A stretch of DNA of 61,952 nt. Origin: an uncultured Patescibacteria group bacterium (lineage in GTDB: Bacteria > Patescibacteriota > JACMRA01). Both the position numbers and the translations under genes were made by a program. Below the pieces are notes generated by a model. It was not told where the DNA came from. It saw only the letters and a program-made list of their open reading frames with translations, and made no database searches. Of this stretch, positions 12,684 through 42,044 are shown piece by piece (within the stretch, counting starts at the first letter, position 1; each line of letters starts with the position of its first letter). Where the stretch lies: the NCBI GenBank assembly GCA_938041505.1, contig CALITC010000002.1:1-61952 (forward strand), in the 5' to 3' direction.

Positions 12684-13374
12684 TCATATATAATATATAT
12701 TGTCAGTATTTTTTCTGCTGTAAATCGTTATTGATTTTATTAGTACTTGATAAATTTTCACATGCCCTGACTCTATTGGATGCAGGCCATCTTCTTTATC
12801 AATATCTTCTTTTGGATCAATATTTTTGATATATCTATATACTGCACATGTTCGAATTTTGAAGCAATTACTCGCAGTGTATCATTATACAAATCGACAT
12901 CTTCTTGAATTCTTGTAAATCCCCTACTGTCCGGTACTTTTGATCTCTGTTCGTTTAGCGGAGTAATTGAACAAAGCAAAACACTACCTCTTCCAGAATT
13001 GATTCCATGGAACCGATTAATTATTTTCGTAATATTTTTTTTGTAGCTGCGAATGTCTGCTTTGTATTTTCCGGTTTGTTTATCTTTGGCTATATCATTT
13101 GAGCCTACTGATATAATCACAATTGAACTCTTATTTGAATTCCAGCGAGAAGTAAATTCTGACTCGACTCTATCCAACAGTTGTGAAGAGGTGTTTCCGC
13201 TTATATCGAGATTAAAAATACGTCTAAATGAAGATTTTTCCACAAATTCTTGATGATGAAATATTTTTTTAACCGCGATACCCAGCCTCCTTCTGGGTCA
13301 TTCAAACCAAATAATATACTGTCTCCAAAGGCAAAAATTTCTTGCTTCTTAAGCTTGTGGTTTATTTTTCTAAC
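12684..13374 (-). pseudogene. SGNH/GDSL-type hydrolase, split by two frameshifts
   Basis: All the family blocks are present but in three different frames. Block I is FAFGDSILFG (near 13329-13300), block III is VGSNDIAKD with neighbouring SITPL in the middle ORF (12773-13243), and block V is DGLHP (near 12790-12776), carrying the catalytic Asp/His. The joins fall at an A7 run (about 13262-13270) and an A5 run (about 12823-12828). Adding one A to each restores a single frame ending in TGA at 12684. No normal start codon is visible in the first frame after the stop at 13375. It would be a lipase/esterase-like enzyme acting on small esters. Either decayed or carrying sequencing errors at homopolymers. 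Confidence 0.75.
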
Positions 13375-14858
13375 TCACCTTCGACTTTTTGGAATAATGG
13401 TTTGGCTTTTGTAATCTGCGCTGCGGTTACTGAATTAATTATTGACTCTCCTGTTTGAGGTAAGAAAATACTTAACACTTCAGCCATATCTCGTAGCAAT
13501 ACAGCCATTTCAGTCAGGATTCTTTTTGTCCCGGCTAGATCAGTCTTAGCCAAAGTCCACGGGGCAGTTTTTTCTAGGTATTCGTTGCCATATCGAGCTC
13601 CTTCTAGCACTACTTCCAGCCCTCCACGAGGATCTAGATCGAGTAGATTTGTGTACGCCTGGCCGAAGTCAAACGGCTTTTCGCTTATGGAATCTAGGTC
13701 TACGACCCCATCAAAATATTTTACAATCAGCGTAGTTACACGCATCAGAAGATTACCAATATTGTTGGCCAGGTGAGCGTTGTAGCTATCGATCATATTA
13801 TTCATATCGAAGTTGGTATCGCCGTCGACATTGACTTCATGAAGCATTAAGAATCTTGTCCCCTCTATTCCAAAAAGCTCTTCCATTTGTCCTGGTGCAA
13901 TACCGTTGCCTAACGACTTCGAGAATTTGCGGCCATCGGCGTCATTGATGAGCCCGTGAGCGAGCACGCGTTCAGGCAAAGGTAAGTCGAGACTGGCTAA
14001 CATAGCTATGAAGATAACCACATGGAACTTGGCGATCTCTTTGGATACATACATTAGATTGATTGGCAGGTTCTCTTGCAAGTCCTTCAGAATTTCACCC
14101 TGGAAATCCTCTGCTTGGTGTGGGAATTCTCGTATTTTGTCGATTGTCTCTGGGTTTATCAAGGCAGTTAGATAGTTTACTAGGGCTTCGAACCACACAT
14201 ACATGACTTGGGTTTCATCACCTGGCACTGGCACTCCCCAAGGAAGGCGTTTTTGCTCGCGAGATATAGAGATATCTTGAAGATCCTTAATAAAATTAGT
14301 GTATTCTTTGGCTATATATTCTGGACGGATTTCGGCCTCTTTGAGATATTCGCCAATCAGTTCTTGGAAGTCAGATAACCTGAAGAAATAATTCTCTTCT
14401 TCCATTTTGATTAATTCTGAGTGATGGACCGGGCACTTACCATCCACAAGCTGGCTTGGTGCATAAAAATCTTCACACCCCTTACAGTATAGACCAGAGT
14501 AGGATTTTTTGTAGATTAAGTCTTGGTTTTGTAGAAGCCGCCAGATAGCCTGCGCAACAATATGGTGGCGTGGAGATGAAGTGTGTACAAAGTCGGAGTG
14601 TCGTACTTCGTACTTGTCCCAAAGGTTTTCGAAATTCTGAGCAAGCTCATCCACAAATTCTTTGGGCTTCTTCCCTTCTTCGAGAGCCTTCTCGTATATT
14701 TTCAACCCGTGCTGATCTACGCCCATCGTCATGAAAACCCCTTCGTTACTCACTCGCTGATAAAACCTGCGCATAGTATCAGCAAAAATACCCTCAAGGA
14801 GGTGGCCAAGATGAGGGTTGGCGTTAGTATAAGGAATTGGTGTAGTAATCAGGTACAT
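13362..14858 (-). CDS. metG: Methionyl-tRNA synthetase
   Basis: Charges tRNA-Met, class I synthetase. 498 residues, the short form without the C-terminal tRNA-binding domain. The HIGH motif is HLGH at 16-19 after TPIPYTNANP. The zinc-knuckle region contains CKGC and CPVH. The KMSKS motif is KFSKS, within GRKFSKSLGN near residue 314. The specificity segment VMYVWFEALVNYLTAL is present. It starts with ATG at 14858 and ends in TAA where the SGNH hydrolase frame begins, so the two are in one transcript. Confidence 0.97.
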   Translation of the reverse strand: MYLITTPIPYTNANPHLGHLLEGIFADTMRRFYQRVSNEGVFMTMGVDQHGLKIYEKALEEGKKPKEFVDELAQNFENLWDKYEVRHSDFVHTSSPRHHIVAQAIWRLLQNQDLIYKKSYSGLYCKGCEDFYAPSQLVDGKCPVHHSELIKMEEENYFFRLSDFQELIGEYLKEAEIRPEYIAKEYTNFIKDLQDISISREQKRLPWGVPVPGDETQVMYVWFEALVNYLTALINPETIDKIREFPHQAEDFQGEILKDLQENLPINLMYVSKEIAKFHVVIFIAMLASLDLPLPERVLAHGLINDADGRKFSKSLGNGIAPGQMEELFGIEGTRFLMLHEVNVDGDTNFDMNNMIDSYNAHLANNIGNLLMRVTTLIVKYFDGVVDLDSISEKPFDFGQAYTNLLDLDPRGGLEVVLEGARYGNEYLEKTAPWTLAKTDLAGTKRILTEMAVLLRDMAEVLSIFLPQTGESIINSVTAAQITKAKPLFQKVEGELEK

Positions 14859-14950: not shown

Positions 14951-15586
14951 TTACTTTTCCTGTTTAGTTAATTTAGATAGCTCTAGGATAAATTCTAAAA
15001 ATTCATCATAGGTAAACGATTCTCCGCTTTTATTGATTTCAGCCAAATAATTATGTACTTCAAAATCAGGTCTTTTCTTTTCATCAGCGCCGTAGTTATT
15101 TGGGTTCATATACTCTTCGTATAGACCACTAAGGTGGCTTTTATTTAGAATAAGCTCGGTATCATATCCTTCTTTCTTTATTCTATCTATCCATTTGTCG
15201 ATTTTTTGATGAAGTTGAATTATGCTATCTTCTTCATTGGCAGGAAGATCTTTAATACTTGCTAATAAACTATACACCATACTCACAAACAGTGTCCTTT
15301 CTTGAAATTTTATTAGGTTAGGATTATCTGTCCCTTCCTCTTTTTTCTGGATAAGAAGGGTTTTAAAAGCTTCAAGACTGATTGATTTAAGCATTTTTTT
15401 GTTTGCGCTTTGGAAGTCCAAAATTGGGACTGCTCCCACTTCTTTGAGGTCAGTAGAGATATGGACCATTGCGTGGTTGGTGAGATTTCTAACACCCATC
15501 ATCTCGTTAGGAGAGTCAAGATTGTTTTGTTTTGCTTCCTGAATATCTTTTTTTCGTGACGTATTTAGCTTTTCTCCATCGAACAT
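14951..15586 (-). CDS. Hypothetical helical protein
   Basis: 211 residues, charged and mostly helical, no signal peptide or membrane helix. It starts 10 bp after the distal stop (15596) of the disrupted gene upstream, which indicates tight operon packing before that gene was interrupted. It is the last gene of the long minus-strand cluster that begins with the membrane-protein module at 28 kb. No family recognised. Confidence 0.6.
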   Translation of the reverse strand: MFDGEKLNTSRKKDIQEAKQNNLDSPNEMMGVRNLTNHAMVHISTDLKEVGAVPILDFQSANKKMLKSISLEAFKTLLIQKKEEGTDNPNLIKFQERTLFVSMVYSLLASIKDLPANEEDSIIQLHQKIDKWIDRIKKEGYDTELILNKSHLSGLYEEYMNPNNYGADEKKRPDFEVHNYLAEINKSGESFTYDEFLEFILELSKLTKQEK

Positions 15587-15595
15587 ATATGTATA

Positions 15596-16471
15596 TTAGT
15601 TTTGCACCACCTCTTCTGTTGTATTTGTCTGGTCTACTGTGTCGGCTTTTTCAATAATTTCTTCGATGGACTGCTTGGCAATATTTCCTCCAGGAGTGCT
15701 AATTTCATTTTGGACTTATTGCCAGACTAGGTTAGTATCGATTTCATATTCTCCATTTTGGTTTTGTCTCGCTTCGAAATTCATATTGCCATTAATAATA
15801 CCATTAATTTTTTCACGCTCAATGTCTGTGATATTTCGGTTAGCAGTTTTTTCGAACGCGGTTTCTATTTTGTAGGTCAAGGTGTTGATCTGTTCTTCTT
15901 TGGTTTTTGGCTTTTCCTCTTCGTTTTTATTGGTGTGTTTGGCTTCTAGCTCGGCTATGGCTTTCTCTCCAATTTCTTGGCGAATTCTTGGCTTATCCCC
16001 TGCATAATGGGTCTGTCCTTTTTTGGTAAGTACGCCATTAGCTACGTAGCTCTGGTAAACTTGCTTGCTCACTTCGGAAAACTCTTTCTGTAAGTCTTGG
16101 TGAGGAATATTCGACTTTGCATGCAGCTCGTTGAGCTTATCGCCCTGCTCTTTCTCGATAATTTTGAGATTAGTCGTTTGAATAAATTCCTGAAGGTTTA
16201 TCTGGCGCTTGAGATCATGATTAAAAAACTCTTCTAAGTTCTCGATGGCAGCTTCAGCGACTTTGTGCATGTCATTCTCTCCATCAGTTTCGAGTAGTGT
16301 TCGGATAGCAATTTTTTCGATAACACCTTCGACTTCTGAGGTTGACCCCAGCTCTTGTTCTAGAGCCGGTCGATATTCTTCGAGCAATTGCTTGATTTCC
16401 TTACCTTTTGGCTGCTGAAGCAGCTCTTGTGGATTCTGAGCCCCTTCAAGTTTTTGTTCTGTGATAGACAT
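15596..16471 (-). pseudogene. Helical hypothetical protein interrupted by an in-frame TAA
   Basis: 251 residues from ATG at 16471 to TAA at 15718-15716. The same frame then stays open for 39 more codons (VQNEISTPGGNIAKQSIEEI and onward) to a second TAA at 15598-15596, only 10 bp before the next gene, and this tail continues the Glu/Gln-rich helical composition. The full protein would be about 290 residues. No domain recognised; residues 175-205 are a Lys/Glu-rich linker. Either a recent nonsense mutation, a base-call error, or a genuine end with a coding-like leader. The 251-residue part may still be functional. Confidence 0.55.
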
Positions 16472-16560
16472 ACTATAATTATAGCATGTTATTTATAATA
16501 TGTAAATTAATAAACCCCTTTTGTTAAGAGGTTTGTTTTATATATTTGGATTAAGAATAC

Positions 16561-17229
16561 TTAAGCATTTCCATTAATTTCTTCAATGAAACCCGCTAAA
16601 AATGATCTCATTCGTATTTCTCTGCTTGTGGCAATTTTCCTGGCCGAATCTGTATTCATGAGATCTTTAAGTTTGAATAATTTTTCGTAGCAATGATTAT
16701 ACCCCGTGCCATCGTGTGCTGCGTATTCTTCTGGGGTCATATTTTCTCTGACTTTGATTGCTGGATCGAAAAATTTTCTCCCACATTGAGTAACATACTC
16801 AATACACCTGACGAGGCCAATATAGCCTAAAGCATCTAGCCTATCTGCATCTTGAACAACCTTGGCTTCTAGACTAAGTAGATCTGATGACGTGGCTTTG
16901 CGAAAACTTATTTTCTCAACAATTTCACAGACACGCTTAATCGTCGCTTCGTCGGCACCTAGTTTAGGCAATTCTTGAGCTATGATTGTTGGCCCTACTT
17001 CTTGTCCGTTATTAAACTTAGCATCCCCAATATCGTGTAGAAGTGCAGCCAGCTCAACAATAATCGCATCAGCTTTAACTTCCTGATTAATTCGTTTAGC
17101 GTTACCGACAACACGCTGTACGTGATCCCATCCATGACCAGCTCCTTGGTTTTGAAGCCTGGATTTTACAAACTCTTGAACGTTATTAATTAATTCTGTG
17201 CTCATTGATGATTGCAATATTCTTTTCAC
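16561..17229 (-). CDS. HD-domain metal-dependent phosphohydrolase
   Basis: 222 residues. The HD-domain signature is visible: GWDHVQRVVGNAKRI (first His), LAALLHDIGDAKF (His-Asp pair), and VVQDADRLDALG (the second Asp), as in the YpgQ/YedJ-type subfamily that hydrolyses (deoxy)nucleoside triphosphates or related phosphate esters. Helical throughout. It lies in the minus-strand cluster, 37 bp after the 282-residue protein gene. The family is secure, the substrate is not. Confidence 0.9.
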   Translation of the reverse strand: MKRILQSSMSTELINNVQEFVKSRLQNQGAGHGWDHVQRVVGNAKRINQEVKADAIIVELAALLHDIGDAKFNNGQEVGPTIIAQELPKLGADEATIKRVCEIVEKISFRKATSSDLLSLEAKVVQDADRLDALGYIGLVRCIEYVTQCGRKFFDPAIKVRENMTPEEYAAHDGTGYNHCYEKLFKLKDLMNTDSARKIATSREIRMRSFLAGFIEEINGNA

Positions 17230-17266
17230 CAGAATAATACATACCTTACCTCGAAGAAGGTGTCAA

Positions 17267-18115
17267 TTATTTGAGAAGATCTCCGAGTCCTTTTGGTTTC
17301 TTGACTTCGTGCTTTTCTGGCTCTGGAGCTGCCTTTTGGAGGTCTTCTGCGGATTTCATTTGGGTTTGATCTACAGGTGCTTTCTTGGCTGGTGCTGTGT
17401 CAGCTTGAGGTACAATCTTACCAATGGATGGCTTTGGCTTGGCGGGTTGTTGATCGAGTTTCGGTGCAGCTTTTGAAGGGATATTGAACTTCTTGAGGAG
17501 GTCTTGAGGAGATAACGGCTGCCCAGTAGCAGGTTTTTTCACTTCTAGTAATTGCAGGCTCTCAAGATCATTGATGTCTAAGCGATGTCCTTGATTTAAT
17601 ACTTTTTCTAATTTATCAAGAGCTAGCTCGTCTTCATTAATCTCATTTTTGATATTTTGTTTAAGATATCTTGGCATTTCTTCTCCTTTTGTAATATAGT
17701 AGAAGAATTCTTCGTGTAGCTCTTCTGGAAGAATATCTACAAGTTGATTGAGATCATGCATCATGTCGTATTGATCAGCCATAGTTAGAGCAACAGACAC
17801 TCTAGCGTCGTGATCATTGTGCAGTTTTATAAATCTTTTAGTTATACCTTCTCTTTCCTCATTCGACTGTTCGTAGAAGTGTAAAAGTGCTTTTTCGATA
17901 TATTCTTTAGTTAAATAATTTTTAGCATACATCTTACGCATTATTCCGAAGAAAGGTATCCAGATGCTCACGTTTTCTTCCTCTTCAGAAGGGATTTCGA
18001 ATCCAAGCTCTTGATTAAGAGCCTCTTCCCTCTCTCTCACAGCTTTTAGCTCTGGGTTGTTATCTATATCGAACAAGTGCTCGTAGTTTGGTTCTATTTG
18101 TGTGTTGTCAGACAT
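17267..18115 (-). CDS. Hypothetical protein with Ala/Pro/Lys-rich tail
   Basis: 282 residues. Residues 1-180 are acidic and helical, with no membrane segment. From about 190 the sequence becomes Pro/Ala/Lys/Gln-rich and disordered, ending in KKPKGLGDLLK. It starts 10 bp downstream of the giant membrane-protein gene, so it is probably its cotranscribed cytoplasmic partner. No family recognised. Its close coupling to the giant protein suggests a role in the same complex (inference). Confidence 0.65.
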   Translation of the reverse strand: MSDNTQIEPNYEHLFDIDNNPELKAVREREEALNQELGFEIPSEEEENVSIWIPFFGIMRKMYAKNYLTKEYIEKALLHFYEQSNEEREGITKRFIKLHNDHDARVSVALTMADQYDMMHDLNQLVDILPEELHEEFFYYITKGEEMPRYLKQNIKNEINEDELALDKLEKVLNQGHRLDINDLESLQLLEVKKPATGQPLSPQDLLKKFNIPSKAAPKLDQQPAKPKPSIGKIVPQADTAPAKKAPVDQTQMKSAEDLQKAAPEPEKHEVKKPKGLGDLLK

Positions 18116-18125
18116 ATAATTAAGA

Positions 18126-21100
18126 TTATTTTGATAATAGTGCTGAGAATTGTAATAGTTCGTTGTTACTTAACCCAGTGTTGCTTTTAGATTTATCCAA
18201 TAGCATTTTAAATTGACCTCGCTCTACTATATCTAGTTTACCTGGAATTTGACTATTAATTCTCTTAATTGCTGGGTCACTACTTGCCAAGTATCTACCG
18301 ACAAAATCCATTTGCCGAGCTTGATCTTGTGAATAACCTTGTGACATAAAGATATTCATATTTCTTGGGTTTGTTTGGAATCCTTTGAAACCATCCACAT
18401 TAGAAAGTTGAGATATTATTTTCATATTATCGCTAAAGCTAGTAGATTGAGGCTTAGGTGTCTCAGATTTAGGTTTTTTTGGACTTTGATTTGATTTATT
18501 GCTTGGCTTGCCTTTACCTACATTACTAGAGGTAACATTGATCTGTGGGGCTTCTTGAGCTGCTTTTCTGGCCTTTTCTTGAGCTGCAGAATTCCCACTT
18601 TTTTGCTGACCGAAATTCGCATTTGGGTTGAATGGGTCGTTTGGGTCACCTAGCTCGTTTTTAATTGGACTGACTATACTTGCTCCTCCTTCGTTGGTAA
18701 ATACATCGTAAGAGAACGATTGGTTATCAATGTCATTGGCATTTATTTTGGGCTGTTGGTTACTTTTTGCCCTTGCAGATTCGTCGCTGACAATTTGTTG
18801 AGCGGTTACAGTTTGCTTCTTTCCTTTCTTTGTTTTGTAATTATATGTTGATTTTGGAGAGGCAACTGGAGACGATTTATCAAATTTATATTTTGCTTCT
18901 ATGTTTGGCGCTGGAGACGCACTCGTTGCAAATGGATTTGCGTTTAAGTTCACATTACTATTCTGCGGTGGGTTGAATGGGTTATTCTGGTTATAATTAC
19001 TACTTTCTGGTTTTTCTGGCTCTCCCGTGAATGGATTTACTGGGCTATTTCCTCCTCCACCACTTCCGCCTCCTTGTGGACTTGTTGGGTTGAATGGGTC
19101 GTTTGGATCTATTGGGTCGTCTCCTCCGCCTCCGTTATCTGGAGCTGGTGGGTTGAATGGGTCGTTTGGATCATCTGGGTTTCCTCTATAGTTTCCTCCT
19201 CCGCCTCCTAGCAACGCACTTGTATCGATATTATTATCTTCAGTTCCGTAGAGCGACCTGTCGGCATCTCCAATCTCAATGTTCTCTATTTTTTTATTTA
19301 TCTTTTCTGTTGCTGACTTGTTTTGATTTTTCAGTTCCTTATTATTATTATTTAATACTCTTCGGACATCCTGGATTTTAGGTGGATTTCCTTTTTTAGC
19401 TCTGCTTTCAATCTGGCGTGCTAATTCCTGACTCTTTTTTTCTCCTTTAGACCTGACTTGGTCAAACACTTGAGAAGAGCTTACATCTAATTGTTGATTA
19501 ATAAAATCTTTTGCTTGATTGTTATCTTTGAAATCTGCCTTCATCTTCTCCATAATTATATTTGCCTCCTTGTCTTTCTTACCAGTTTTTGCTGCAATAT
19601 ATCTACTTGTTAAGTCAGAGAACTGATTTCGCTCTTTAGTACTTAAGGTGTCGAATTTGTAGGTTATACTATCATCATCACTTCCAACCTTTATTGTGTC
19701 TCGGTTTGCAAACTCTTTTCTTAGACCGTCAGTCACCTCTTTAGTTCCGTATACATCATGCATTGATGTGTCGCTTTTTAATTTTTTAACTATAGATTGA
19801 GCATCTTCAAGCTTATTCATCTCATTATTTAATTTGATGATGTTGTTGTTAGGTTCGGTAGCTCCTTTTTTCTCTCGAACACCACCAGTGTGGATTTTAG
19901 CACCTTCGCTCATTACAGTTTTGTATTTACCATCAGCTACTACATAGGCATTTTTACCTTCACCAGTGTAATCTCTACCATACATAGTATTGAGATAATT
20001 ATTTCGAATATTATTAGCTGCATGGAATAGCTTATTTTTATCAGTATCAGAATCAGTTAAATTTCCTGACTTAATTAGCTGCTTACCCAGATCGCTTTTT
20101 TGGAACGTACCAGAATCTATAGCCTTTCTCAATCCTTCTTTGGTATCTATATTATTTGTACCAAAATATCTTCTCTCGTATTTTTTCAACGCCTCTTCCT
20201 TTAGCTTAAATTTCTTCTTTTCATTAATTTCATCGTCTGCATCTATTTGAGCCTCTGCTGATAAGTACTCATCTTCAAAAGTTAACCCTTTTGCAACAGC
20301 TCCGTCAGTCAAATAGTCCACTTCTTTGGTTTCACCCGCATCTAAGCCAGAATAAGTATCAACGTACTTATCCCCATCAAGAGATTTCTCAGTTTTATTT
20401 TCCTTTTTGGACGATATATTTTCAAGCTCTCCAAGCCCTTTGGATCCTGGTACTAACCCTCTTAAATCCTTATTTGAGAGTCCGTTAGCTTGAGCAACGC
20501 GTGCGAAATCTCCATATTTGAAGTTGTCTGCATCGATTTGCTTTCGATAGTATGATTTTCTACCTGCATCTGCAGCGAACCTAGCTCTTGCATCCTCATC
20601 GCCATGCAATACCGGTGCTTTGTTTGCAACGATACTCTCAACTTTTGGATCATTTAGTAGGGCGTACTGATCCTGAACTAAGTCAACCAAATTAGGATCG
20701 TTTAGAATTTGATTTCTTAGGTTGTCATCTTGAATGCTTTGCTTAAGAAGAGATCTGTATTTTTCTTTAGTATCGGCACTCATTGAACTTGCACCGCCAC
20801 TCTGGGCTACTTCATCAGACAAGCTCTTTAATAATGAACCAGCTATGCTTGTGTCGTAGTCGGTTTTCTTACCTGTGGTTTGATCGTATTTGAGCTTTGC
20901 TCTTGCTTTTCCTTCTTCTGCAAAATAATCATCCCCTCTTTCTTTTTTGATCTTTTTCATCTCATCAGGACCAAGACCGGTATATCTATTCCAATTAGGA
21001 TTCAGATCCATATCAAACCCAGAAAGTTTTAATGCTCCATTAATTTTTTTATTTCCTCTTGCTATTCTCTCACCCAAATCAAATGCCCGCTCTTTTAGTC

Positions 21101-23492
21101 GTGCTTGACGACCTTTTTTACCTAAATTTAAATTTTCCCAATAAGCAGCCGGTGCTTCTCCAAAGCCTTTCAATATATCATCTGTAGACTCGATAAGATC
21201 TCCTGCAGTATTAAATGCACCTTGTGTCCTATCTTTGAGTCTTTGTCGTCCAGACTGCTTCTTTTTGTAGTCTTTATCAGCGTCACGTGTTTTCTGACGC
21301 AAGGCGTTAATTTGCGCCAATCTTGCTTTACGGGTTTTCTCTGTTAATTTTCCAGCTTTGGCCTCAGCTACTGTTTTCGCATTAAGATTCTTAATATCTA
21401 ATTTATTTTTATTTTTAAGGGCATCCAGCTTCTTCTTCTGACCTCCATCGACTAGCCTGTTGCGCAACCCAATTCCGGCCGCAGCTATTGCGCCTCCTCC
21501 TCTGAGGGTTTGTCCGATGGCGCCGGTGACGGCGTTGAGGGCTCCACTGGCTATGTCTCCGAATTTTTTCTCGAAGAAATCCACCAGTACTTGTAAAGCA
21601 AAGATCGAGACTACTCCACTAAGAAGTGCGAGAACTAATTTGGTTATTTGACCTTCGGATAGGACTGCGGCATTCGCGCTTACCCCTCCAAGGATGGTGT
21701 TTGAGGCTACTGTTTGATCTGTAATATCCCTCACTGCAGATTCGAATGAGCCGGCAAGTGAGTTGATGAGAATCAGACCGAATACAAACGCTGGATAGAA
21801 TAACGTCATCGACCAGAACATCTCAAGCCACTCTTTGGCATATTTTTTCATCTTATCGATCGGTGATAGGAACATTACCAAAGCTAGTGGTGAGGTGATC
21901 ATGAGTAACCAGATTCCAATAGCTCGGAATAACGCAAGGCGTAGGGCTTTGAGGAAGATAAAAATCGCGTAGAGAATTATCAAAACATAGACTACTTCCT
22001 TAATTAATACTGTAAGCTTCTCACCGCTTTGGAAGGTAACTGCGAACGTGTCACTAACGTTATTAACTTGACAGTCAGCGGCAGTTTCAGACAGATTTCC
22101 ACATCTAATCTCAGATACCTTGGATAGACTATCTGATATGTTGTTGATAGCTACTTGTGAACCGGACTCGCCGTTGACATTAGTATTGGTAACATAAGAG
22201 AAGTATACTAGATCCCCCACTCCTTGTACGATATTTACAAAGGTAGTTGTAGCCGCCAAGGTGAAGTTCATCGCAACAGCGATAATAACGATGTTTACTA
22301 AGAATTCGCTGACTTTCAGTTGCTTCTTGATTTGCTTGATATCTAGCAAATACCCGAATCCTACAAAAGTAAAGGAGGCGAGTACTAGCACATTCGCTAC
22401 CTGGATAACGATACGCCACGGATTAGTTGCCACATTGATCAAGCCTTCTGCGGCGGGATTTACACGCACAATAATTAAGAATGCGTTAGCGATCAGCCAG
22501 AATACAGTGTGCACACCCCAACCAACAACCCAGACAATAATAATTAAGATTGCTAGAATTAGATTAAAAATAGTTTTGATGATGTCCGCTAGACCATTCC
22601 CTCCACTACTATTATTTTGAACTTGTATTAATGAACCGCCTGTTGTGTAAGATCTTCCTGTCTCTTTATCAGTAATTGATCCATTACTGTTTATGGTATA
22701 CTCTCTACCTGTTTCGACATCGGTTAATGTTCCATCTCCATTATCTCTGAACTCTGAAGTATCGCCAATGTTATCTTCTACAGATGCATCTGCAGCAACT
22801 GTTTCAAGTGTGGAAAAACTAGATTTCGCTAGTTGCTCAAAGTCAGAAACTTTTGGCTGACTCTCTTCGTTTAATCCGATACAGTTAATATCTCCATTGT
22901 TCTTCACTACGTTATCAGCGATATTAATTCGAGTAGTGTAATCTGAAACGCCACAAACTTTTGCAAAATCATCTCCAAAACCTTCTACAGCCCCGATTGT
23001 TTTACCTGCTGCTCTGTAAAGGTAGACCGGTTCTGAGAAAAAACCTCCTTTTGATGCCCATATATCTCTCTTAGCATCATTATCACCTGGAAAAGTAATA
23101 GTTCTTTTTTTACACTCAAGTCTGGCATTTTCTGCACCGAAAACACGAGTTATTATTTCTCCTTTTAGGTTCAAGGGGTTTGAAAATGCGATGCACTCGT
23201 CTGGAGTTCCTAATGTTTCACTCCCATCAGGTGCAATACATTTGTTTACAGCAAGGCTAGCATCAATGGTTTCAATTTCACAGGTATATCCTTCACTTCT
23301 TAACGAAATAGTATCTGCAGATACAGCAACGTTGACATGTGAGATGGATGTCAAAACAAAAAATAACACAAAAAGTACTCTGAATAATATATGGAATTGG
23401 TAACGCATTTTTTTGTAGATGATATTTATACCTGTATACCAACTCACAGCCTTACCCTCCTCCGTACTTTTTGTTTGTGTTTTGATTTCCAT
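18126..23492 (-). CDS. Giant polytopic membrane protein, VirB6/TrbL-like layout, with NPF-type repeats
   Basis: 1788 residues. N-terminal signal anchor about 34-58; a Cys-containing ectodomain (59-290) with a short tandem repeat NGDGTLTDVETGREYT/INSNGSITDKETGRSYT; six to eight hydrophobic helices between about 303 and 640; then more than 1100 residues of highly charged, presumably cytoplasmic sequence. Between about 1440 and 1620 are repeated DPNDPFNP/NPF motifs in Gly/Pro/Asn-rich linkers. A polytopic core followed by a long soluble tail resembles VirB6/TrbL proteins of type IV secretion systems, but no motif proves it. Its head (MEIKTQTKSTEE...) and promoter are duplicated at 27 kb. The ATPases of a secretion system are not in this window. 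Confidence 0.8.
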   Translation of the reverse strand: MEIKTQTKSTEEGKAVSWYTGINIIYKKMRYQFHILFRVLFVLFFVLTSISHVNVAVSADTISLRSEGYTCEIETIDASLAVNKCIAPDGSETLGTPDECIAFSNPLNLKGEIITRVFGAENARLECKKRTITFPGDNDAKRDIWASKGGFFSEPVYLYRAAGKTIGAVEGFGDDFAKVCGVSDYTTRINIADNVVKNNGDINCIGLNEESQPKVSDFEQLAKSSFSTLETVAADASVEDNIGDTSEFRDNGDGTLTDVETGREYTINSNGSITDKETGRSYTTGGSLIQVQNNSSGGNGLADIIKTIFNLILAILIIIVWVVGWGVHTVFWLIANAFLIIVRVNPAAEGLINVATNPWRIVIQVANVLVLASFTFVGFGYLLDIKQIKKQLKVSEFLVNIVIIAVAMNFTLAATTTFVNIVQGVGDLVYFSYVTNTNVNGESGSQVAINNISDSLSKVSEIRCGNLSETAADCQVNNVSDTFAVTFQSGEKLTVLIKEVVYVLIILYAIFIFLKALRLALFRAIGIWLLMITSPLALVMFLSPIDKMKKYAKEWLEMFWSMTLFYPAFVFGLILINSLAGSFESAVRDITDQTVASNTILGGVSANAAVLSEGQITKLVLALLSGVVSIFALQVLVDFFEKKFGDIASGALNAVTGAIGQTLRGGGAIAAAGIGLRNRLVDGGQKKKLDALKNKNKLDIKNLNAKTVAEAKAGKLTEKTRKARLAQINALRQKTRDADKDYKKKQSGRQRLKDRTQGAFNTAGDLIESTDDILKGFGEAPAAYWENLNLGKKGRQARLKERAFDLGERIARGNKKINGALKLSGFDMDLNPNWNRYTGLGPDEMKKIKKERGDDYFAEEGKARAKLKYDQTTGKKTDYDTSIAGSLLKSLSDEVAQSGGASSMSADTKEKYRSLLKQSIQDDNLRNQILNDPNLVDLVQDQYALLNDPKVESIVANKAPVLHGDEDARARFAADAGRKSYYRKQIDADNFKYGDFARVAQANGLSNKDLRGLVPGSKGLGELENISSKKENKTEKSLDGDKYVDTYSGLDAGETKEVDYLTDGAVAKGLTFEDEYLSAEAQIDADDEINEKKKFKLKEEALKKYERRYFGTNNIDTKEGLRKAIDSGTFQKSDLGKQLIKSGNLTDSDTDKNKLFHAANNIRNNYLNTMYGRDYTGEGKNAYVVADGKYKTVMSEGAKIHTGGVREKKGATEPNNNIIKLNNEMNKLEDAQSIVKKLKSDTSMHDVYGTKEVTDGLRKEFANRDTIKVGSDDDSITYKFDTLSTKERNQFSDLTSRYIAAKTGKKDKEANIIMEKMKADFKDNNQAKDFINQQLDVSSSQVFDQVRSKGEKKSQELARQIESRAKKGNPPKIQDVRRVLNNNNKELKNQNKSATEKINKKIENIEIGDADRSLYGTEDNNIDTSALLGGGGGNYRGNPDDPNDPFNPPAPDNGGGGDDPIDPNDPFNPTSPQGGGSGGGGNSPVNPFTGEPEKPESSNYNQNNPFNPPQNSNVNLNANPFATSASPAPNIEAKYKFDKSSPVASPKSTYNYKTKKGKKQTVTAQQIVSDESARAKSNQQPKINANDIDNQSFSYDVFTNEGGASIVSPIKNELGDPNDPFNPNANFGQQKSGNSAAQEKARKAAQEAPQINVTSSNVGKGKPSNKSNQSPKKPKSETPKPQSTSFSDNMKIISQLSNVDGFKGFQTNPRNMNIFMSQGYSQDQARQMDFVGRYLASSDPAIKRINSQIPGKLDIVERGQFKMLLDKSKSNTGLSNNELLQFSALLSK

Positions 23493-23549
23493 ATATATAT
23501 TTACATGGTTGATACCCTATAGTATATTCTATAAATTGCTTTTCTACAA
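23457..23549 (-). repeat. Promoter and 5'-coding repeat, copy 2 (giant gene)
   Basis: About 93 bp nearly identical to 26979-27071. It contains the promoter TTGTAG (23549-23544), 17 bp, TATACT (23526-23521), an AUG-UAA start-stop (23506-23501) 8 nt before the real ATG, and the first codons. Confidence 0.8.
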
Positions 23550-23562
23550 TAGTATTTGTATT

Positions 23563-24678
23563 TTATTTTGATTCTCGGGACTTTTTGATCTCTTCTTCTT
23601 GTCTTTGAATGGCATTCTTTAGTGTTTGCTTAATGGAACCTGGTTCATATTTATATATCATACTGTTTAATTCTGGATCATCCATACTATCCACAATACT
23701 TTGAATTATCATTTCTTCCACCCCTTGAAAATTAGATTGTCCAAATTCATCCTCTTTGCTGCCAACATGTTGATCATAAGAGACTCGTTCAGCTGCCTTC
23801 TTGATAAATCTATATCCAAAAGGGTTCTCTCCGTTGTACTCGCTTTTTACTTCTTCCACTGCTTGTATAGCTTTTTTCACAAACTTAGCGTCTACCTTTT
23901 TACTTTTTTTTAAAATCTTTAGCTGATTTGCATAAAACCCAGTAATTCTAAGTCTGAAAGGTATACTTTCTTCTATGTGAGCAATATTTAAATCAGATAA
24001 TTCATTCAGCAAGTCGATGTTTTCTTGCACATCTCGGATGATTTCTTTATCGGTTTTACCTTCCTGGCTATTTCTTACTTGTTCAGTTCTACCACCTTGT
24101 TTGATTTGACCTCCGTCATTGTTACTTGTTACCACTTTAATCGATCCGATGAAGGTACTTGCAATTAATAGAGCCCCGAGACTAGCAATTTTTATTTGGT
24201 CTTTTTTGCTGATTTTTCTTTTTTCCTCGATTTTTGAGCTAATTTCATTAATTTTTACGCTTGCTTCTTTAAGGCCTTCTACCATTTTTTCAGGGCTTGA
24301 CTTCATGGTTTTAGCTTCATTTATTTGGTCTTCATCAAGAATGTTATGTTCTTCTTCGACTTCAACACTTTCTTCTGCCAACTCTGTAGAGTCTTGCATA
24401 GCTTCTAGGCCTTTGATAACTTCATCAAGTTGAGCTATGAGTTCCATGTCTTCACTCTCGTTTAAGGCAGTATCTATACCTGCTTTAAGGTCTACAATAT
24501 TTTTTTGGATTTTGGGATAGAATTTTTCTCTGACTGTGTCTGATTTGCCGCTTAGAAACTCATTTTGTTTTTGGATTTCGGCTAGTTTTGTTTTGGCTTC
24601 CTCAGCTGTTACTGCTTGGATTTTGGTTTCTTGTTCTGTTGCTTGTACTTCTGTTGAATTTAGATTTTCTAAAGACAT
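23563..24678 (-). CDS. Coiled-coil, single-TM protein, paralogue C of a three-member family
   Basis: 371 residues. The first 100 residues are almost identical to the paralogues at 24703 and 27134: MSLENLNSTE, then an EETKIQAVTAEEAK-type helix and FLSGKSDTVREKFYPKIQKN. They are acidic and coiled-coil-like. One membrane segment lies near 167-186 (IASLGALLIASTFIGSI), so the protein has an N-terminal cytoplasmic coil and a C-terminal domain on the other side, or the reverse. The C-terminal 180 residues differ from the other two copies. It precedes the giant gene by 71 bp. Function unknown; probably part of the same membrane assembly. Confidence 0.7.
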   Translation of the reverse strand: MSLENLNSTEVQATEQETKIQAVTAEEAKTKLAEIQKQNEFLSGKSDTVREKFYPKIQKNIVDLKAGIDTALNESEDMELIAQLDEVIKGLEAMQDSTELAEESVEVEEEHNILDEDQINEAKTMKSSPEKMVEGLKEASVKINEISSKIEEKRKISKKDQIKIASLGALLIASTFIGSIKVVTSNNDGGQIKQGGRTEQVRNSQEGKTDKEIIRDVQENIDLLNELSDLNIAHIEESIPFRLRITGFYANQLKILKKSKKVDAKFVKKAIQAVEEVKSEYNGENPFGYRFIKKAAERVSYDQHVGSKEDEFGQSNFQGVEEMIIQSIVDSMDDPELNSMIYKYEPGSIKQTLKNAIQRQEEEIKKSRESK

Positions 24679-24702
24679 AATATTTGTATTTTTTTTGTAT
24701 TT

Positions 24703-25845
24703 TTATTTTGCTGTAATTTGTTTTATGATTCCTGTCTCTTCTCTCGTCTGTGCGTTCTCCCTTATCAATTGATCTTTTTCATCTAACATCCTGTTCCAGG
24801 CTGCATGCACATTGTGACTGTAACGATCTGTAAACTCACTTCTTTTGCTTTGTGACAGCATTGGAGAAGCAATATATTCGAGAATGTCGTTTGCTTGACC
24901 ATAGAGAAATGCAGGATCAGCTACGCCAGCTTTATTAATTTGTTTTCCAAATATTACTTTTCCTAATTCAAGCTTACGTATTGCTTCTTCAACAAAATTA
25001 AGGCTGTTTCTATCCAAACCATATCGCTCAGGATTTTCCATAGCAACCTCTAAAATATCGTAAAATTCTCCTATTTTTTTATCTGTTAAGGCGTCTACCA
25101 TGTCTGTACTTATTTTATAACCGTGCGCCCACGTTCCTTTGTCTTTAGTTGAACCACCTTTGTATACAGCTTTATCTGTTTTTTCGTCCATATACTTTCT
25201 TATAAAGTGTTTGAATTTTAAAGCATTTTCAACACTTCTCTCTTTTCCTTTAGCGTTCCAATTATCTTGAAGCTCGGATTTATCCATGGTAAAATCCCCT
25301 ACCTCAATTGATTTTGAGTTATTTAACGTGTTGGAACCTCCGATGAGGATCAACCCACCGAGTGCTAATTGGGCTATCTTTACTTTATGTTTGTCTAGAA
25401 ATTTATTTTTTTTCACTTTTTCAACCACCTCTTGAATATTTTCGATAGCTTGATTTAGATTATCTACTATTTTTTCTACTTGCTCTGGATTGATTTTTAC
25501 TTCTTGCTCTTCTTTACTTTCAGGCGCATCGGAATCGCTTGTCTCTAATGGTGCAGTATTTAATACAGCTAATTCTTTAATGATTTCATCTAACTGTCCA
25601 ATTAATTCCATATCCTCTGACTCGGTTAGCGCTACTTCTATTCCTGCTTTGAGACTTGAAATTTTCTTTTCCATTTTTGGTAAAAACTTCTCTCTAACCG
25701 TATCTGACTTACCGCTTAGAAACTCATTTTGTTTTTGGATTTCGGCTAGTTTTGTTTTGGCTTCTTCTGGATTGAGAGCTTGAATCTTGGTTTCTTGCCC
25801 TGTATCGATTTGTTGTTCTGTAGAATTTAGATTTTCTAAAGACAT
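24703..25845 (-). CDS. Coiled-coil, single-TM protein, paralogue B
   Basis: 380 residues. It shares the MSLENLNSTE head with its neighbours and, after a TM segment around 155-172 (KIAQLALGGLILIGG), shares a C-terminal domain with paralogue A (VGDFTMDKSELQ; FYDILEVAMENPERYGLDR; EEAIRKLELGKVIFGK). It has its own promoter, the same as that of paralogue A, and runs into paralogue C with only 24 bp between them. No known domain recognised. Confidence 0.7.
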   Translation of the reverse strand: MSLENLNSTEQQIDTGQETKIQALNPEEAKTKLAEIQKQNEFLSGKSDTVREKFLPKMEKKISSLKAGIEVALTESEDMELIGQLDEIIKELAVLNTAPLETSDSDAPESKEEQEVKINPEQVEKIVDNLNQAIENIQEVVEKVKKNKFLDKHKVKIAQLALGGLILIGGSNTLNNSKSIEVGDFTMDKSELQDNWNAKGKERSVENALKFKHFIRKYMDEKTDKAVYKGGSTKDKGTWAHGYKISTDMVDALTDKKIGEFYDILEVAMENPERYGLDRNSLNFVEEAIRKLELGKVIFGKQINKAGVADPAFLYGQANDILEYIASPMLSQSKRSEFTDRYSHNVHAAWNRMLDEKDQLIRENAQTREETGIIKQITAK

Positions 25846-25923
25846 ATTAATATTTTTGTTTTTTTTTACTTAAGTTATTTTTATTTATACAGGTATATCC
25901 AAAGATATACGATGTCTGATAGT

Positions 25924-25952
25924 ATTATATCATACATGCAAATTTTAATCAA
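25924..25952 (-). promoter_or_regulatory. Promoter of paralogue B gene
   Basis: TTGATT (25952-25947), 17 bp, TATAAT (25929-25924). The -35, -10 and following leader (CTATCAGACATCGTATATC) are repeated upstream of paralogue A at 28333-28361. Confidence 0.75.
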
Positions 25953-26032
25953 TCAATTTTTTATTCGGAAAATATGACCCAAACAAGTAGTCTAGGTCAT
26001 TATTTTGTTTTCTCATAAGGTTTTTTGAAACT

Positions 26033-27014
26033 TTATAAGGATGATTTAAACTTCTTAAGGTTGTAGTTGCAGTACTTTCCAACCATCTCCTCAGTATAAG
26101 CAGCTGCATATCCAACATGAGCAAGCGTTTCGTGAAGTTCGTCTACTTGAAGTAGTGGCATTTGGATCATTTTTGCTCCTACTTTGAGCATACTTTGCCC
26201 TCTATCTCCAGCTCGGCATATAGCCTGACTATCCATTGAAGGTGTCATGCATAGTGAGTCAGCATTGTAAGTATCAATTTGGATAAGGGCTTTGTTGATC
26301 GCACTGGTGTCCACTTTTATAGCTTTGAGAGCAGATACTTGCTGAGCAAGTTTGGTAGAAGATATACCACCTACCATGTCATACATACCGTCATCAACTA
26401 ACTTGATGTGCTGACTGGCAAGAATATCAGTATTCTTCGAATACTTTTTAGCCTTGCTTAATCTACTATTAAATAGTTTATTAGGCTGGCTATATTCTGA
26501 TGGCGCTGATTGTTGTAGCTGTTGAGTCTCCTTCACCTCGAAAAGTGCTGACTCTGAAGCAACTACGTCTTTGGTCATCGCTTTCGCCCTCACCACGAAC
26601 ATATGTAACAGTCGCTTTTTCGCAAATTAATGTTGGAGCACCTGAATTAAAAAGAGCAACGGTGCTTCTATTAGAATTAATAATAACACACTCGTCTGGA
26701 ACTTTTCGACCCGGAATAAGCTGACCTGAAGCATCTACACATTGCGCTAAACTTATGTCATCTGTTTCTGTCAGCACGTTGATATCACAGGTAAAACCAT
26801 TACTTGTCCTGGTCTCGGTCTCAAACTCTTGAGCATTACCTAATACGGTAGGTGAGAAAACGCTCAAAACAATCACTAACCCTATTATTTTTAATATGGC
26901 CTTTGGTAGTATTCTTTTAGCTAACTGATGCATGGCTTGATGATTAATCAACCTACTCAACCAACCCTGTTTTCTATCTTCCTCCGTACTTTTTGTATGT
27001 GTTTTGTTTTCCAT
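26033..27014 (-). pseudogene. Second copy of the giant protein's head with a short helical tail, frameshifted
   Basis: Two overlapping ORFs (27014-26490 and 26602-26033) make one protein of about 325 residues if joined by a one-base frame change between about 26602 and 26530. The first part starts MENKTHTKSTEE, has a TM/signal segment (about 40-60) and an ectodomain aligned to the giant protein's (SNGFTCDINV..; VPDECVIINSN; LICEKATVTYV). The second part is helical with four Cys and has no counterpart in the giant. No polytopic membrane core. A programmed frameshift is possible but no classical slippery site was seen; mutation or a base-call error is simpler. Confidence 0.65.
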
Positions 27015-27071
27015 ATATTTATTTACATGGTTGATACCATATAGTATATTCTATAAACTACTTTTCTACAA
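26979..27071 (-). repeat. Promoter and 5'-coding repeat, copy 1
   Basis: Near-identical to 23457-23549. Promoter TTGTAG (27071-27066), 17 bp, TATACT (27048-27043); AUG-UAA start-stop at 27028-27023, again 8 nt before the ATG. Confidence 0.8.
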
Positions 27072-27133
27072 GCTGATTATTCTCAGAGTTTACTCACTAT
27101 TAGATAGTTTTTAATAACTCTTGCAACTTAGTT

Positions 27134-28258
27134 TTATTTTCTTTCAGCTCTTTTGACTCTGCCAAATACACTAACTCTCATTTTTTCCATTTTGTCAGAG
27201 TATTTGTAGGAATAGTCCTGGTTGCGTGCGCTCAGTACAAAATCTGAAGCCATAAATAATAATATTCCATTTGCTTGACTATACATCATTTGATCTTCCA
27301 CTTTTTTATCGGTTCTACTCAAGAATTTTCCAAAGAAAACTTTATTTAACTCTAATTTATTGATAGCCTCCTCAAAAAAATTCTCACTGTTCTTATCTAA
27401 GCCAAACTTTTCTGGTTTTTCTAAGGCTTCGTTTAAGATATCATGAAGTTTTTCAAGATCCTCTTTTGAGAGTGATTCTACCATTTTTATCGCTTGGCTA
27501 TCGCTATATTGAAAGGAAGATTTATCTCGCATCAATGATCCAAACTTTTCTTGATTTTCTTTGATTCTAAGTTTGTATACTTTAATAAGTGGTTCCTTAC
27601 TTTTTAGTGCTAATTCTACACCAAGCTTTCTGCCTTCCATATCTGTATTTTGTTTTAGCTCAGTCTTGTCCATTGTGAATTCCCCTACCTTTACCGATTT
27701 GGTATCATTGAGCAAGTTAGACCCCCCTAGCAATAATATTCCTGCGATCGCCGCTTTGATTATCTTTACTTTATGCTTATCCAAAAAGCCATTTTCTTTG
27801 ACCAGCTTCTTAACTTCATCGATTTTTTCTTTTGCATTTTCCAGTCCTGCAACAATCTTTTCTTGTTGTTCAGAGTTTACTTTAACCTTCTCTTCTGTGC
27901 TTTCTTCAGAATCTTCCACCAGCTCTTCACTTCCTTGAATATCAGTACTTTCTGAGACCAATTCTGTAGAGTCTTGGATTGCTTCTAGGCCTTTAATTAC
28001 CTCATCTAATTGTGCTATGAGTTCCATGTCTTCACTCTCGTTTAAGGTAGTATCTATACCTGCTTTAAGGTCTGCAATATTTTTTTGGATTTTGGGATAG
28101 AATTTTTCTTTGACTGTATCTGACTTCCCGTTCAAGAAATCGTTTTGTTTTTGGATTTCGGCTAGTTTTGATTTAGCTTCCTCAGCTGTTACTGCTTGGA
28201 TTTTGGTTTCTTGTTCTGTTGCTTGTACTTCTGTTGAATTTAGATTTTCTAAAGACAT
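27134..28258 (-). CDS. Coiled-coil, single-TM protein, paralogue A
   Basis: 374 residues. The head is almost identical to paralogue C (MSLENLNSTEVQATEQETK..., also at the DNA level), followed by an acidic linker (about 100-135), a helix and a TM segment near 172-190 (KAAIAGILLLGGSNLL), then the C-terminal domain shared with B (VGEFTMDKTELKQN; LHDILNEALEKPEKFGLDK; FFEEAINKLELNKVFFGKF). First gene of the module, with its own promoter. C resembles A in the head and B resembles A in the tail, which suggests recombination among copies. Confidence 0.7.
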   Translation of the reverse strand: MSLENLNSTEVQATEQETKIQAVTAEEAKSKLAEIQKQNDFLNGKSDTVKEKFYPKIQKNIADLKAGIDTTLNESEDMELIAQLDEVIKGLEAIQDSTELVSESTDIQGSEELVEDSEESTEEKVKVNSEQQEKIVAGLENAKEKIDEVKKLVKENGFLDKHKVKIIKAAIAGILLLGGSNLLNDTKSVKVGEFTMDKTELKQNTDMEGRKLGVELALKSKEPLIKVYKLRIKENQEKFGSLMRDKSSFQYSDSQAIKMVESLSKEDLEKLHDILNEALEKPEKFGLDKNSENFFEEAINKLELNKVFFGKFLSRTDKKVEDQMMYSQANGILLFMASDFVLSARNQDYSYKYSDKMEKMRVSVFGRVKRAERK

Positions 28259-28332
28259 AATATTTGTATTTTTTTGTTTTTACTTTTTATTTAATACACA
28301 TACACTTGTTTAAGGTATACGGTGTCTGATAA

Positions 28333-28361
28333 TATTATATCATAGATTATTATATTAATCA
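28333..28361 (-). promoter_or_regulatory. Promoter of paralogue A gene
   Basis: TTGATT (28361-28356), 17 bp, TATAAT (28338-28333), followed by the leader shared with paralogue B. Confidence 0.75.
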
Positions 28362-28389
28362 AATTAATTTTTTTCCTTTCCCGCTCGTA

Positions 28390-28453: not shown

Positions 28454-29596
28454 TTAGTATTTGGTCACTTTGAAGATGCAGTGACCTACTCGGCTTCGCT
28501 CTCGGCTGTAGAGAATGTATTCTTGGTCGCCAAAGTTGGTGAATTTGTATTCGGTATTCTCAACCAGCTCACTCATGAACGGCATCAGGATTTGCTTACG
28601 CTTGAAGTTGTAGAACGGTAGGCAGAAGATTACCTCCTTGATTCCAGATTGGTCTGCTTTTTTAAGAACTTCTTGCCAGAGCTTTTTGGTTTCTTTGAAT
28701 TGTCTTTGGATTTCCTTTTCGTTAGGTGTTTTCTCAAAGTTGTGACCCAGATCACCTTCTGTGACAATTGCTAGATCTTTGATAGTGCCGTCACGCTTGA
28801 GCTGTTCGACTATATACGTGTCATCTAATTCGCGAGCGTCTAATTCAAAAACATCTTTGACTTCGGCAAGCTTGTTGTATCTCTTAGAGAGTTGAAAATT
28901 TGCATGTTCTATGTTTTTCTCGACATCAGGAACACATACAGCATCGAGGTCGGTGGCGTAAAACCCATCTTTTAGATCTAGCCCACCAACCAGGACTCTA
29001 CCTTGCCCACAGAATGGATCCCAGACGATTTTTTTCTTGGTTAGGTTGAGAAGGCTCCTGGCAAGCTTAAGATTGATTATACCGCGCTTCATGTCGCCCG
29101 CCGGTAATCTTGTGTCCAATTTGGCCCAGAATTGCTGATCTGAGTAATCCATAACCTCGCCGACCATTAAGTCTTTGCCTCGGAAGAATAGTACAAGCCA
29201 ATCATTGGTTTGTTTCCAATGACCGAAATTTGGGAGTTGGTCCTTGAGGATGTTGATTTTTTTGGCACCGGCTTTTTTGCAGAGCTCTAATAGATCTTTG
29301 GAGAGATTGGCGGGTGTGGCGATACCCATTTTTTTGAACTTGTCGTTGGATCTGCCGATTGAGATTGAATCGAACAAAACTTCGTAAAGATCAGGAAGCT
29401 TGCTCTTGTCGAAGTCAGGGAGCTTATACAGCACCACCCCTCCAAAGACGAGACCTCCTGTACGTTGGATCTTGAGGTTTTTTTCTGAATAAATAAAATC
29501 GTCATCATGATCTGCTACGGACATGGTGATTGCTTCAAACTCAGCAATAGAAAGTGCTTGGCAGTGACCAGTCTTATAGAAATATTCGGTTGTCAT
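28454..29596 (-). CDS. TRM11/UPF0020-like RNA (or DNA) methyltransferase
   Basis: 380 residues. The C-terminal Rossmann methyltransferase has an SAM motif DPFCGQGRVLVGGL near residue 190, an acidic loop YATDLDAVCV, and VTEGDLGHNF in the motif-IV position, where relatives carry TEPYLG-type sequences. The N-terminal 170 residues fit the ferredoxin/THUMP-like region of tRNA guanine-N2 methyltransferases. tRNA or rRNA is the likely substrate, but the unusual motif IV (GD in place of PP/PY) leaves this open. Monocistronic with its own terminator. Confidence 0.75.
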   Translation of the reverse strand: MTTEYFYKTGHCQALSIAEFEAITMSVADHDDDFIYSEKNLKIQRTGGLVFGGVVLYKLPDFDKSKLPDLYEVLFDSISIGRSNDKFKKMGIATPANLSKDLLELCKKAGAKKINILKDQLPNFGHWKQTNDWLVLFFRGKDLMVGEVMDYSDQQFWAKLDTRLPAGDMKRGIINLKLARSLLNLTKKKIVWDPFCGQGRVLVGGLDLKDGFYATDLDAVCVPDVEKNIEHANFQLSKRYNKLAEVKDVFELDARELDDTYIVEQLKRDGTIKDLAIVTEGDLGHNFEKTPNEKEIQRQFKETKKLWQEVLKKADQSGIKEVIFCLPFYNFKRKQILMPFMSELVENTEYKFTNFGDQEYILYSRERSRVGHCIFKVTKY

Positions 29597-40670: not shown

Positions 40671-42005
40671 TTACAAGCCTTGGGCTAGCATACTTTCAGC
40701 CACTTTTACAAAACCGGCGACATTTGCTCCATAAGCGTAATCAACAACCCCATCTTTGGCTCCATATTTCACACATAATTCATGGATATTTTGCATTATT
40801 GATTGCAGCTGCGAGTCTACTTCATCGAACTTATATGGTATAAACTGACTATTTTGGTTCATCTCCACGCCAGACATAGCTACACCACCAGCATTTGCAG
40901 CTTTACCTGGAATGTAACCGATGCTACCGTTGTTTATTAGCTCAATAGCTTCTGGTGTTAGAGGCATATTTGCACCTTCGACAACATAACTAATAGCGTT
41001 CTCAACTAAAACTTTAGCATCAGCACCATCAACTTCGTTTTGTGTGGCACATGGCAAAGCAATATCAGCTTTTATACTCCAGGGCTTGCCTTCTTGGTAT
41101 ACGCTATCCTCGATTTTTGAGTTTATTTCGCTCAGAGGTTTGCGGGCCACCTTACCAGCTTTGATTAACTCGATATCAGCTAGAGTAAAGCCAGGTTCTT
41201 TAAATATATAGCCTTTTCGGTCAGAAAGAGTTAGCACCATTGCACCTTTTTCCACTGCTTTTTGGGCGGCGTGTGTAGACACGTTACCTGAACCTGAAAT
41301 AACTACTTTTTTACCTTCTAGGCTATCTTGGCGATGACTCAGCATTGCTTCAAGAATATAAACCACGCCAAAACCAGTTGCCTGGGTTCTGCCATCTAAC
41401 CCACCAAAATCTAGCCCCTTTCCAGTGAGCACTCCGGAGAACTCTCCACCTAATTTGCGATACGCTCCGTACATTAAGCCAATTTGTTCCGCACCAACAC
41501 CAATATCACCTGCTGGAATATCAATTTTGTCACCAATATATCTCTTAAGTTCTATCATGAAAGCTAATGTAAATCTTTCTAATTCTGCTCTACTTAGCTC
41601 TTTCGGATTGATATCACTTCCACCTTTTCCACCTCCAAGAGCAACTCCAGTTAGTGCGTTTTTAAAAGTTTGCTCAAAACCTAAAAACTTTAAGATATCT
41701 TCGTTTACACTTGGATCAAACCTCAACCCACCTTTGTACGGTCCTCGAGCACCATTAAATTGAACTCTCCATCCTCGATTAATTCGAACCTGACCTTGGT
41801 CGTCTAACCAGCGAACCTTGAAGCTAATTACTCTTTCTGGTTCGAGAAGAGAGTCGAGAACGGGGTAATACTTTTCTGGATTGGGAATGCTATCTAAATA
41901 TGACCCTATGGATTCTACCACCTCTTCCAAAGTTTGCAAAAATTGCTTCTGGTGAGGGTATTGATTTGTTTTTTTACTTACTAATTCTTTGATATAGTTA
42001 TTCAT
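40671..42005 (-). CDS. gdhA: Glutamate dehydrogenase, hexameric NAD(P)-dependent
   Basis: Interconverts glutamate and 2-oxoglutarate plus ammonia. 444 residues from ATG at 42005 (MNNYIKELVSKKTNQYPHQK); a longer reading overlaps the promoter and is rejected. Active-site segments: VQFNGARGPYKGGLRFDPSV, GVALGGGKGGSDINPKELS (catalytic Lys), PAGDIGVGAEQIG; the Rossmann loop is VISGSGNVSTHAA. The length and the KGGLRFDPSVN segment are typical of the small hexameric enzyme of the E. coli GdhA type. Few CPR genomes make amino acids, so this may serve catabolism or redox balance (inference). Confidence 0.96.
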   Translation of the reverse strand: MNNYIKELVSKKTNQYPHQKQFLQTLEEVVESIGSYLDSIPNPEKYYPVLDSLLEPERVISFKVRWLDDQGQVRINRGWRVQFNGARGPYKGGLRFDPSVNEDILKFLGFEQTFKNALTGVALGGGKGGSDINPKELSRAELERFTLAFMIELKRYIGDKIDIPAGDIGVGAEQIGLMYGAYRKLGGEFSGVLTGKGLDFGGLDGRTQATGFGVVYILEAMLSHRQDSLEGKKVVISGSGNVSTHAAQKAVEKGAMVLTLSDRKGYIFKEPGFTLADIELIKAGKVARKPLSEINSKIEDSVYQEGKPWSIKADIALPCATQNEVDGADAKVLVENAISYVVEGANMPLTPEAIELINNGSIGYIPGKAANAGGVAMSGVEMNQNSQFIPYKFDEVDSQLQSIMQNIHELCVKYGAKDGVVDYAYGANVAGFVKVAESMLAQGL

Positions 42006-42015
42006 AATGAGAACT

Positions 42016-42044
42016 AGTATACCATACCCTATGGGGTATGTCAA
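42016..42044 (-). promoter_or_regulatory. gdhA promoter with operator palindrome in the spacer
   Basis: TTGACA (42044-42039), 17 bp, TATACT (42021-42016). The spacer is almost filled by an inverted repeat, 42023-42040, CATACCC-TATG-GGGTATG. Its form resembles operators of CsoR/CstR-type regulators; no such regulator is in the window. Confidence 0.7.

Follow-up and report, generated by a model that had tools for sequence, protein, structure and literature searches.

Introduction

The closest described counterparts of the locus reported here are the type IV secretion systems (T4SS) of the Patescibacteria, tiny and host-dependent bacteria most of which have this machine. VirB4 is found in most of these bacteria and pilin arrays have also been reported; VirB6 (PF04610) is scarce or absent in some classes, for which extreme divergence is suspected, and in some classes the T4SS parts are dispersed (PMC12102498). 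Extended VirB6 proteins, which have at least five hydrophobic helices and large hydrophilic domains, have been described as well; their monoderm examples are 700–900 residues in length and the contribution of the extra domains is unknown (PMC12857230).

We analyzed a stretch of 61,952 nucleotides (the window) from an uncultured Patescibacteria group bacterium whose genome (1.12 Mb in 26 contigs) is approximately 69% complete. An earlier reading of the window, hereafter the original prediction, had proposed that duplicated two-gene units around a protein of 1788 residues made up an undescribed envelope or secretion apparatus. It is instead very probable that this giant protein is a VirB6-like (TrbL) component of a chromosomal T4SS, of the extended VirB6 kind, and that the genes beside it, referred to as MSLEN and short MExKT, arose by local duplication within the genus.

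Results and Discussion

Organization of the Locus

The genes of interest are all on the minus strand, in the order MSLEN-A (374 aa, 27134–28258), short MExKT (174 aa, 26490–27014), MSLEN-B (380 aa, 24703–25845), MSLEN-C (371 aa, 23563–24678) and the giant (1788 aa, 18126–23492), which is the order that had been predicted, and their coordinates were confirmed. A gene for a 282-aa protein (17267–18115, minus strand) is directly downstream of the giant. The locus has a methyltransferase-like gene as its upstream flank (28454–29596) and a methionyl-tRNA synthetase (MetRS) gene as its downstream flank (13362–14858), both also on the minus strand. The interval originally proposed for the module, 14951–28361, does hold the module genes, but its start takes in an HD-domain protein and two small ORFs that are unconnected with the module.

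Two other regions of the window had identifiable genes. The protein encoded at 38217–40343 matches the C-terminal domain of glycosyl hydrolase family 81 (E = 2e-65), an endo-beta-1,3-glucanase type that was unexpected in a small Patescibacteria genome, and a Glu/Leu/Phe/Val dehydrogenase-type enzyme adjoins a DNA photolyase (40671–42053 and 42194–43714).

The Giant Protein Is a Divergent Member of the VirB6 Family

The giant consists of an N-terminal signal or transmembrane (TM) segment with a cysteine-containing ectodomain (approximately residues 1–290), a polytopic core (approximately residues 295–700) and a hydrophilic tail of approximately 1090 aa that contains DPNDPFNP repeats. A single-sequence search with the giant identified relatives of the core in four of five genomes from sister genera, and a weak match (E = 1.6e-5) in the distant genome G055. 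The motif R..G.W.LM..SP.A was conserved in the core. The sister-genus homologues had seven to nine hydropathy segments, the N-terminal one counted, and VirB6/TrbL proteins are expected to have a minimum of four to six such helices. The G055 homologue scored above the Pfam TrbL/VirB6 cut-off and is encoded approximately 7.5 kb upstream of a VirB4 ATPase domain.

A profile built from six cores matched 157 of 287 sampled Patescibacteria genomes (55%) at a threshold of E ≤ 1e-5. A profile scan of genome contigs gave three named relatives, submitted as Gracilibacteria, Paceibacterota and SR1. VirB4 was searched for in 50 of the best-matching genomes and was present in 46; in 41 of these 46, virB4 was on the same contig and strand as the VirB6-like match, 3.4–8.8 kb downstream of it. 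A profile made from the window's own family alone served as a control that a single distant member had not driven these matches. Among 213 ORFs, 55 of which had at least three TM segments, it identified all those that are VirB6-like at E ≤ 1.2e-8; the best of the remaining ORFs had a value of 0.012.

The profile-to-profile comparisons used the VirB6-like region of the membrane core (21393–22610, minus strand). An hhalign comparison of the window's family with 26 Patescibacteria VirB6-like proteins gave a probability of 99.5 and E = 1.3e-22, and 17 of the 26 matched PF04610. The window's giant itself fell below the PF04610 model in the Pfam search. As the window's family matches these relatives by profile, and 17 of the 26 match PF04610, membership of the giant's core in the VirB6/TrbL family is established at the sequence level, through a chain of homology, as the window's protein has no direct match of its own. 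The original prediction of a VirB6/TrbL-type layout for the giant was right, and the likeness goes beyond resemblance to homology. Comparisons with R388 TrwI and pCF10 PrgH were insignificant for the family profile (E 0.06–0.6) and weakly suggestive for the wider profile (E 0.0005–0.005, probability 7–30%). The core profile had no match among PDB sequences, and the AlphaFold model of the core was useless (pLDDT 42).

The giant shares its polytopic core with the VirB6 proteins of other Patescibacteria; however, it is too divergent for PF04610, is unlinked from virB4, and is longer (1788 aa versus 513–1640 codons of open frame among the relatives listed). It resembles the extended VirB6 proteins in its hydrophobic helices and large hydrophilic domains, and differs from the monoderm examples in having both an N-terminal ectodomain and the repeat-containing tail. 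The giant is a very long, divergent VirB6, and so an already known kind of T4SS part. A possible second large VirB6-type protein was noted in a sister genus, where a weak TrbL match (L040, G004:C23:33597–33857, E = 0.0029), which may be due to chance, is in an open frame of 2108 codons.

Other T4SS Genes Are Dispersed

The original prediction had called for a check for VirB4-type ATPases elsewhere in the genome, and this was positive. A VirB4 ATPase is encoded near dnaA (G000:C6:27724–28632), PrgI/VirB3 (PF12666) near a ksgA-like gene (G000:C10), and VirB2-like pilins (PF18895) on two further contigs (G000:C4 and G000:C7). Since all these components were found, and all on contigs other than that of the giant, the T4SS of this genome is present but dispersed. 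The sister genera, too, have the giant, VirB4 and PrgI on contigs separate from one another. The usual, though not defining, proximity of VirB6 to virB4 was therefore not seen in the window's class, and membership of the two in one machine rests on homology and co-presence. In the sister-genus genome G004, three VirB2-like pilin genes (L032 12269–13807) are close to VirB4, so T4SS linkage has been partly kept in that genus.

The separation of the giant from VirB4 in this class, together with its unusually long tail and genus-specific ectodomain, would be consistent with a VirB6 relative that has been exapted for a role unrelated to secretion by a T4SS, such as one at the cell surface. We consider this very unlikely, as the genomes of the class, which are incomplete, yielded no better VirB6-like gene while VirB4, PrgI and pilins have been retained, leaving the giant as the only good candidate for the VirB6 slot. 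In the reading that we favor, as a T4SS component, the giant would be located in the membrane as the VirB6 central channel or as a pilus platform, probably, by analogy with VirB6 proteins of solved structure, as a pentamer. It would work with the VirB4, PrgI/VirB3 and VirB2-like pilins from the other contigs, and the hydrophilic tail may act as a scaffold for VirB4 or for substrates.

The MSLEN Proteins

The original prediction held that the three MSLEN genes share a head and that two of them share a tail and a promoter, and our analyses agree. The heads of the MSLEN proteins are 72–93% identical, with the highest identity between MSLEN-A and MSLEN-C. The tails of MSLEN-A and MSLEN-B are related (37% identity, score 248 versus a null maximum of 32) and the tail of MSLEN-C is unrelated to either in shuffle controls. 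The regions upstream of MSLEN-A and MSLEN-B were identical at 88 of 108 positions, again with shuffle controls, and have in common a TTGATT-17-TATAAT site followed by a conserved downstream stretch (28312–28372 for MSLEN-A and 25902–25962 for MSLEN-B, minus strand). A genome-wide search for this promoter element found these two copies and no third. Comparison of the MSLEN-A and MSLEN-C heads gave a dN of 0.03 and a dS of 0.29, indicating purifying selection on the heads (dN/dS approximately 0.1), which argues for working proteins.

Of the three MSLEN proteins, only MSLEN-C exceeded a simple hydropathy threshold for TM helices. The proposal that the coil proteins each have one TM segment thus agrees with the result for MSLEN-C, and such a topology is plausible for MSLEN-A and MSLEN-B, which were below the threshold; association with the membrane is probable for the MSLEN proteins. 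AlphaFold modeled MSLEN-A with a head of three helices and a helical tail that was predicted well (pLDDT approximately 75–93 over much of its length). Foldseek with this model found no PDB match at E ≤ 0.001. Searches of Pfam, NCBIfam and PHROGs with the module proteins gave nothing useful, and no MSLEN proteins were found in viral contigs. We found no database family or fold for the MSLEN proteins.

The VirB8-like bitopic proteins of monoderm T4SS (PrgL, TraM) offered one comparison, as the MSLEN proteins may also be bitopic and are encoded beside VirB6. However, VirB8 domains are NTF2-like and the predicted structure of MSLEN-A is essentially all-helical; a VirB8-like identity was ruled out on the basis of this helical model and its lack of a significant PDB match.

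The MSLEN proteins are tied to the T4SS by adjacency only. They probably associate with the membrane, combining a conserved head of three helices with helical tails that vary, and would most likely be accessory to VirB6 assembly or to surface contact, although this is conjecture. A more elaborate possibility, which we regard as unlikely, is that the T4SS of this genus has a recombining repertoire of interchangeable outer parts, made up of MSLEN proteins and free ectodomain copies, in which a fixed head docks on the machine and swapped tails and duplicated ectodomains vary the host-facing display, as VirB2 pilin arrays are thought to vary.

The Short MExKT Gene

The original prediction had also recognized that the two MExKT genes, those of the giant and the short protein, share their first codons and a promoter/leader repeat of 93 bp. 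This repeat (92–97 bp; giant copy 23453–23549, short MExKT copy 26975–27071, minus strand) was confirmed, with 86 of 92 positions identical and a score of 154 versus a shuffle maximum of 37. The sharing is wider than the first codons, as the short protein matches the N-terminal 142 residues of the giant (E = 6.8e-7; score 119 versus a null maximum of 52) and the two have a cysteine pattern in common. The short MExKT protein lacks the VirB6 core and is a paralogue of the ectodomain at the N-terminus of the giant. Within the conserved leader, a few bases upstream of both MExKT starts, is the sequence ATGTAA, a start codon followed by a stop codon (23501–23506 and 27023–27028, minus strand).

An ORF of 189 aa in the next frame (26033–26602, minus strand) overlaps the last 113 nt of the short MExKT gene and is a possible continuation after a frame break. 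Because of this overlap, the short gene may, as judged from its reading frames, be a frame-broken longer gene. The 189-aa ORF had no detectable homology to the giant. An impression by eye that homology to the giant continued past the frame break was unsupported by a shuffle test.

The apparent frame break and the missing VirB6 core raise the question of whether the short MExKT gene is a duplicate that has lost its function and is decaying, as some of the MSLEN copies perhaps are too. This explanation, which concerns the side genes only and is compatible with the giant being a VirB6, is possible but doubtful. The substitution pattern of the MSLEN-A and MSLEN-C heads and the conservation of the upstream regions and leaders speak against it, and the frame break could be explained by a base error in the metagenome assembly. 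If functional, the short MExKT protein might tune assembly or host contact, a role that we can only conjecture.

Conservation in Sister Genera

The five sister-genus genomes were 78–85% complete, and the neighborhood of the giant was present in three of them (G001, G003 and G004). The methyltransferase-like gene of the window shares 41% and 43% identity with genes that neighbor the giant in L014 and L015, respectively. In G001, the methyltransferase and MetRS genes flank the giant as they do in the window; in G004, the methyltransferase gene adjoins the giant with nothing between them. Because this flanking synteny has been kept, the position of the giant between methyltransferase and MetRS genes is, as judged from gene order, old.

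Neither the MSLEN family nor the giant's ectodomain was found in any of the five genomes, including the giant neighborhoods of G001, G003 and G004. In G001 and G003 other coil-plus-TM proteins occupy the place upstream of the giant, and as these have no detectable homology to MSLEN, lineage-specific genes seem to take up the position upstream of VirB6. The 282-aa downstream protein has positional counterparts in two of the sister genera and no homology to the gene in that place in G055; it may be a more stable partner of the giant than the MSLEN genes. Two other neighbors of the giant were noted in these genomes. In G003, a protein of 1263 aa that contains two stretches of peptidase M23 (L013 1438–5229) is encoded two genes downstream of the giant and is a candidate wall-opening partner in the VirB1 role. 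In G001, a protein-kinase-like gene (L014 11435–12166), with a weak Pfam match below the cut-off, is between the coil-TM gene and the giant.

Four of the five genomes have retained the giant, without MSLEN or the ectodomain. This bears on the proposal that MSLEN and MExKT units make up a self-contained envelope or secretion apparatus of a new kind. Both gene types are truly duplicated, with shared leaders and heads under purifying selection, and the MSLEN proteins are without a database family or fold, as such an apparatus would have it. Nevertheless, the giant's core is VirB6-like and phylum-wide, the MSLEN family and ectodomain are missing from the sister-genus sample, and the methyltransferase gene is directly beside the giant in G004. 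We therefore view a new apparatus as extremely improbable. By the refutation criterion given with the original prediction, the claim of an undescribed module fails, because homologues of the giant occur phylum-wide, apart from MSLEN and the ectodomain, and the apparatus corresponds to the known Patescibacteria T4SS (PMC12102498).

Returning to a VirB6 with locally duplicated neighbors, the leader and the start of the giant's gene, along with a neighboring MSLEN gene, would have been copied locally in this genus, with heads and tails diverging separately after the duplication. The MSLEN proteins and the ectodomain look like genus-specific, selectively maintained accessories. What is new here is a divergent, unusually large VirB6 and an unexplained genus-specific side family; the machine itself is known.

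Conclusions

With this locus, a small class in which the T4SS genes are dispersed gains a divergent VirB6. The core profile derived from this protein and its relatives detects VirB6-like proteins in more than half (55%) of the sampled genomes. T4SS genes were essential in the single species tested, in which their role is unknown (PMC11665869), and a better list of the parts of this machine is therefore of some value.
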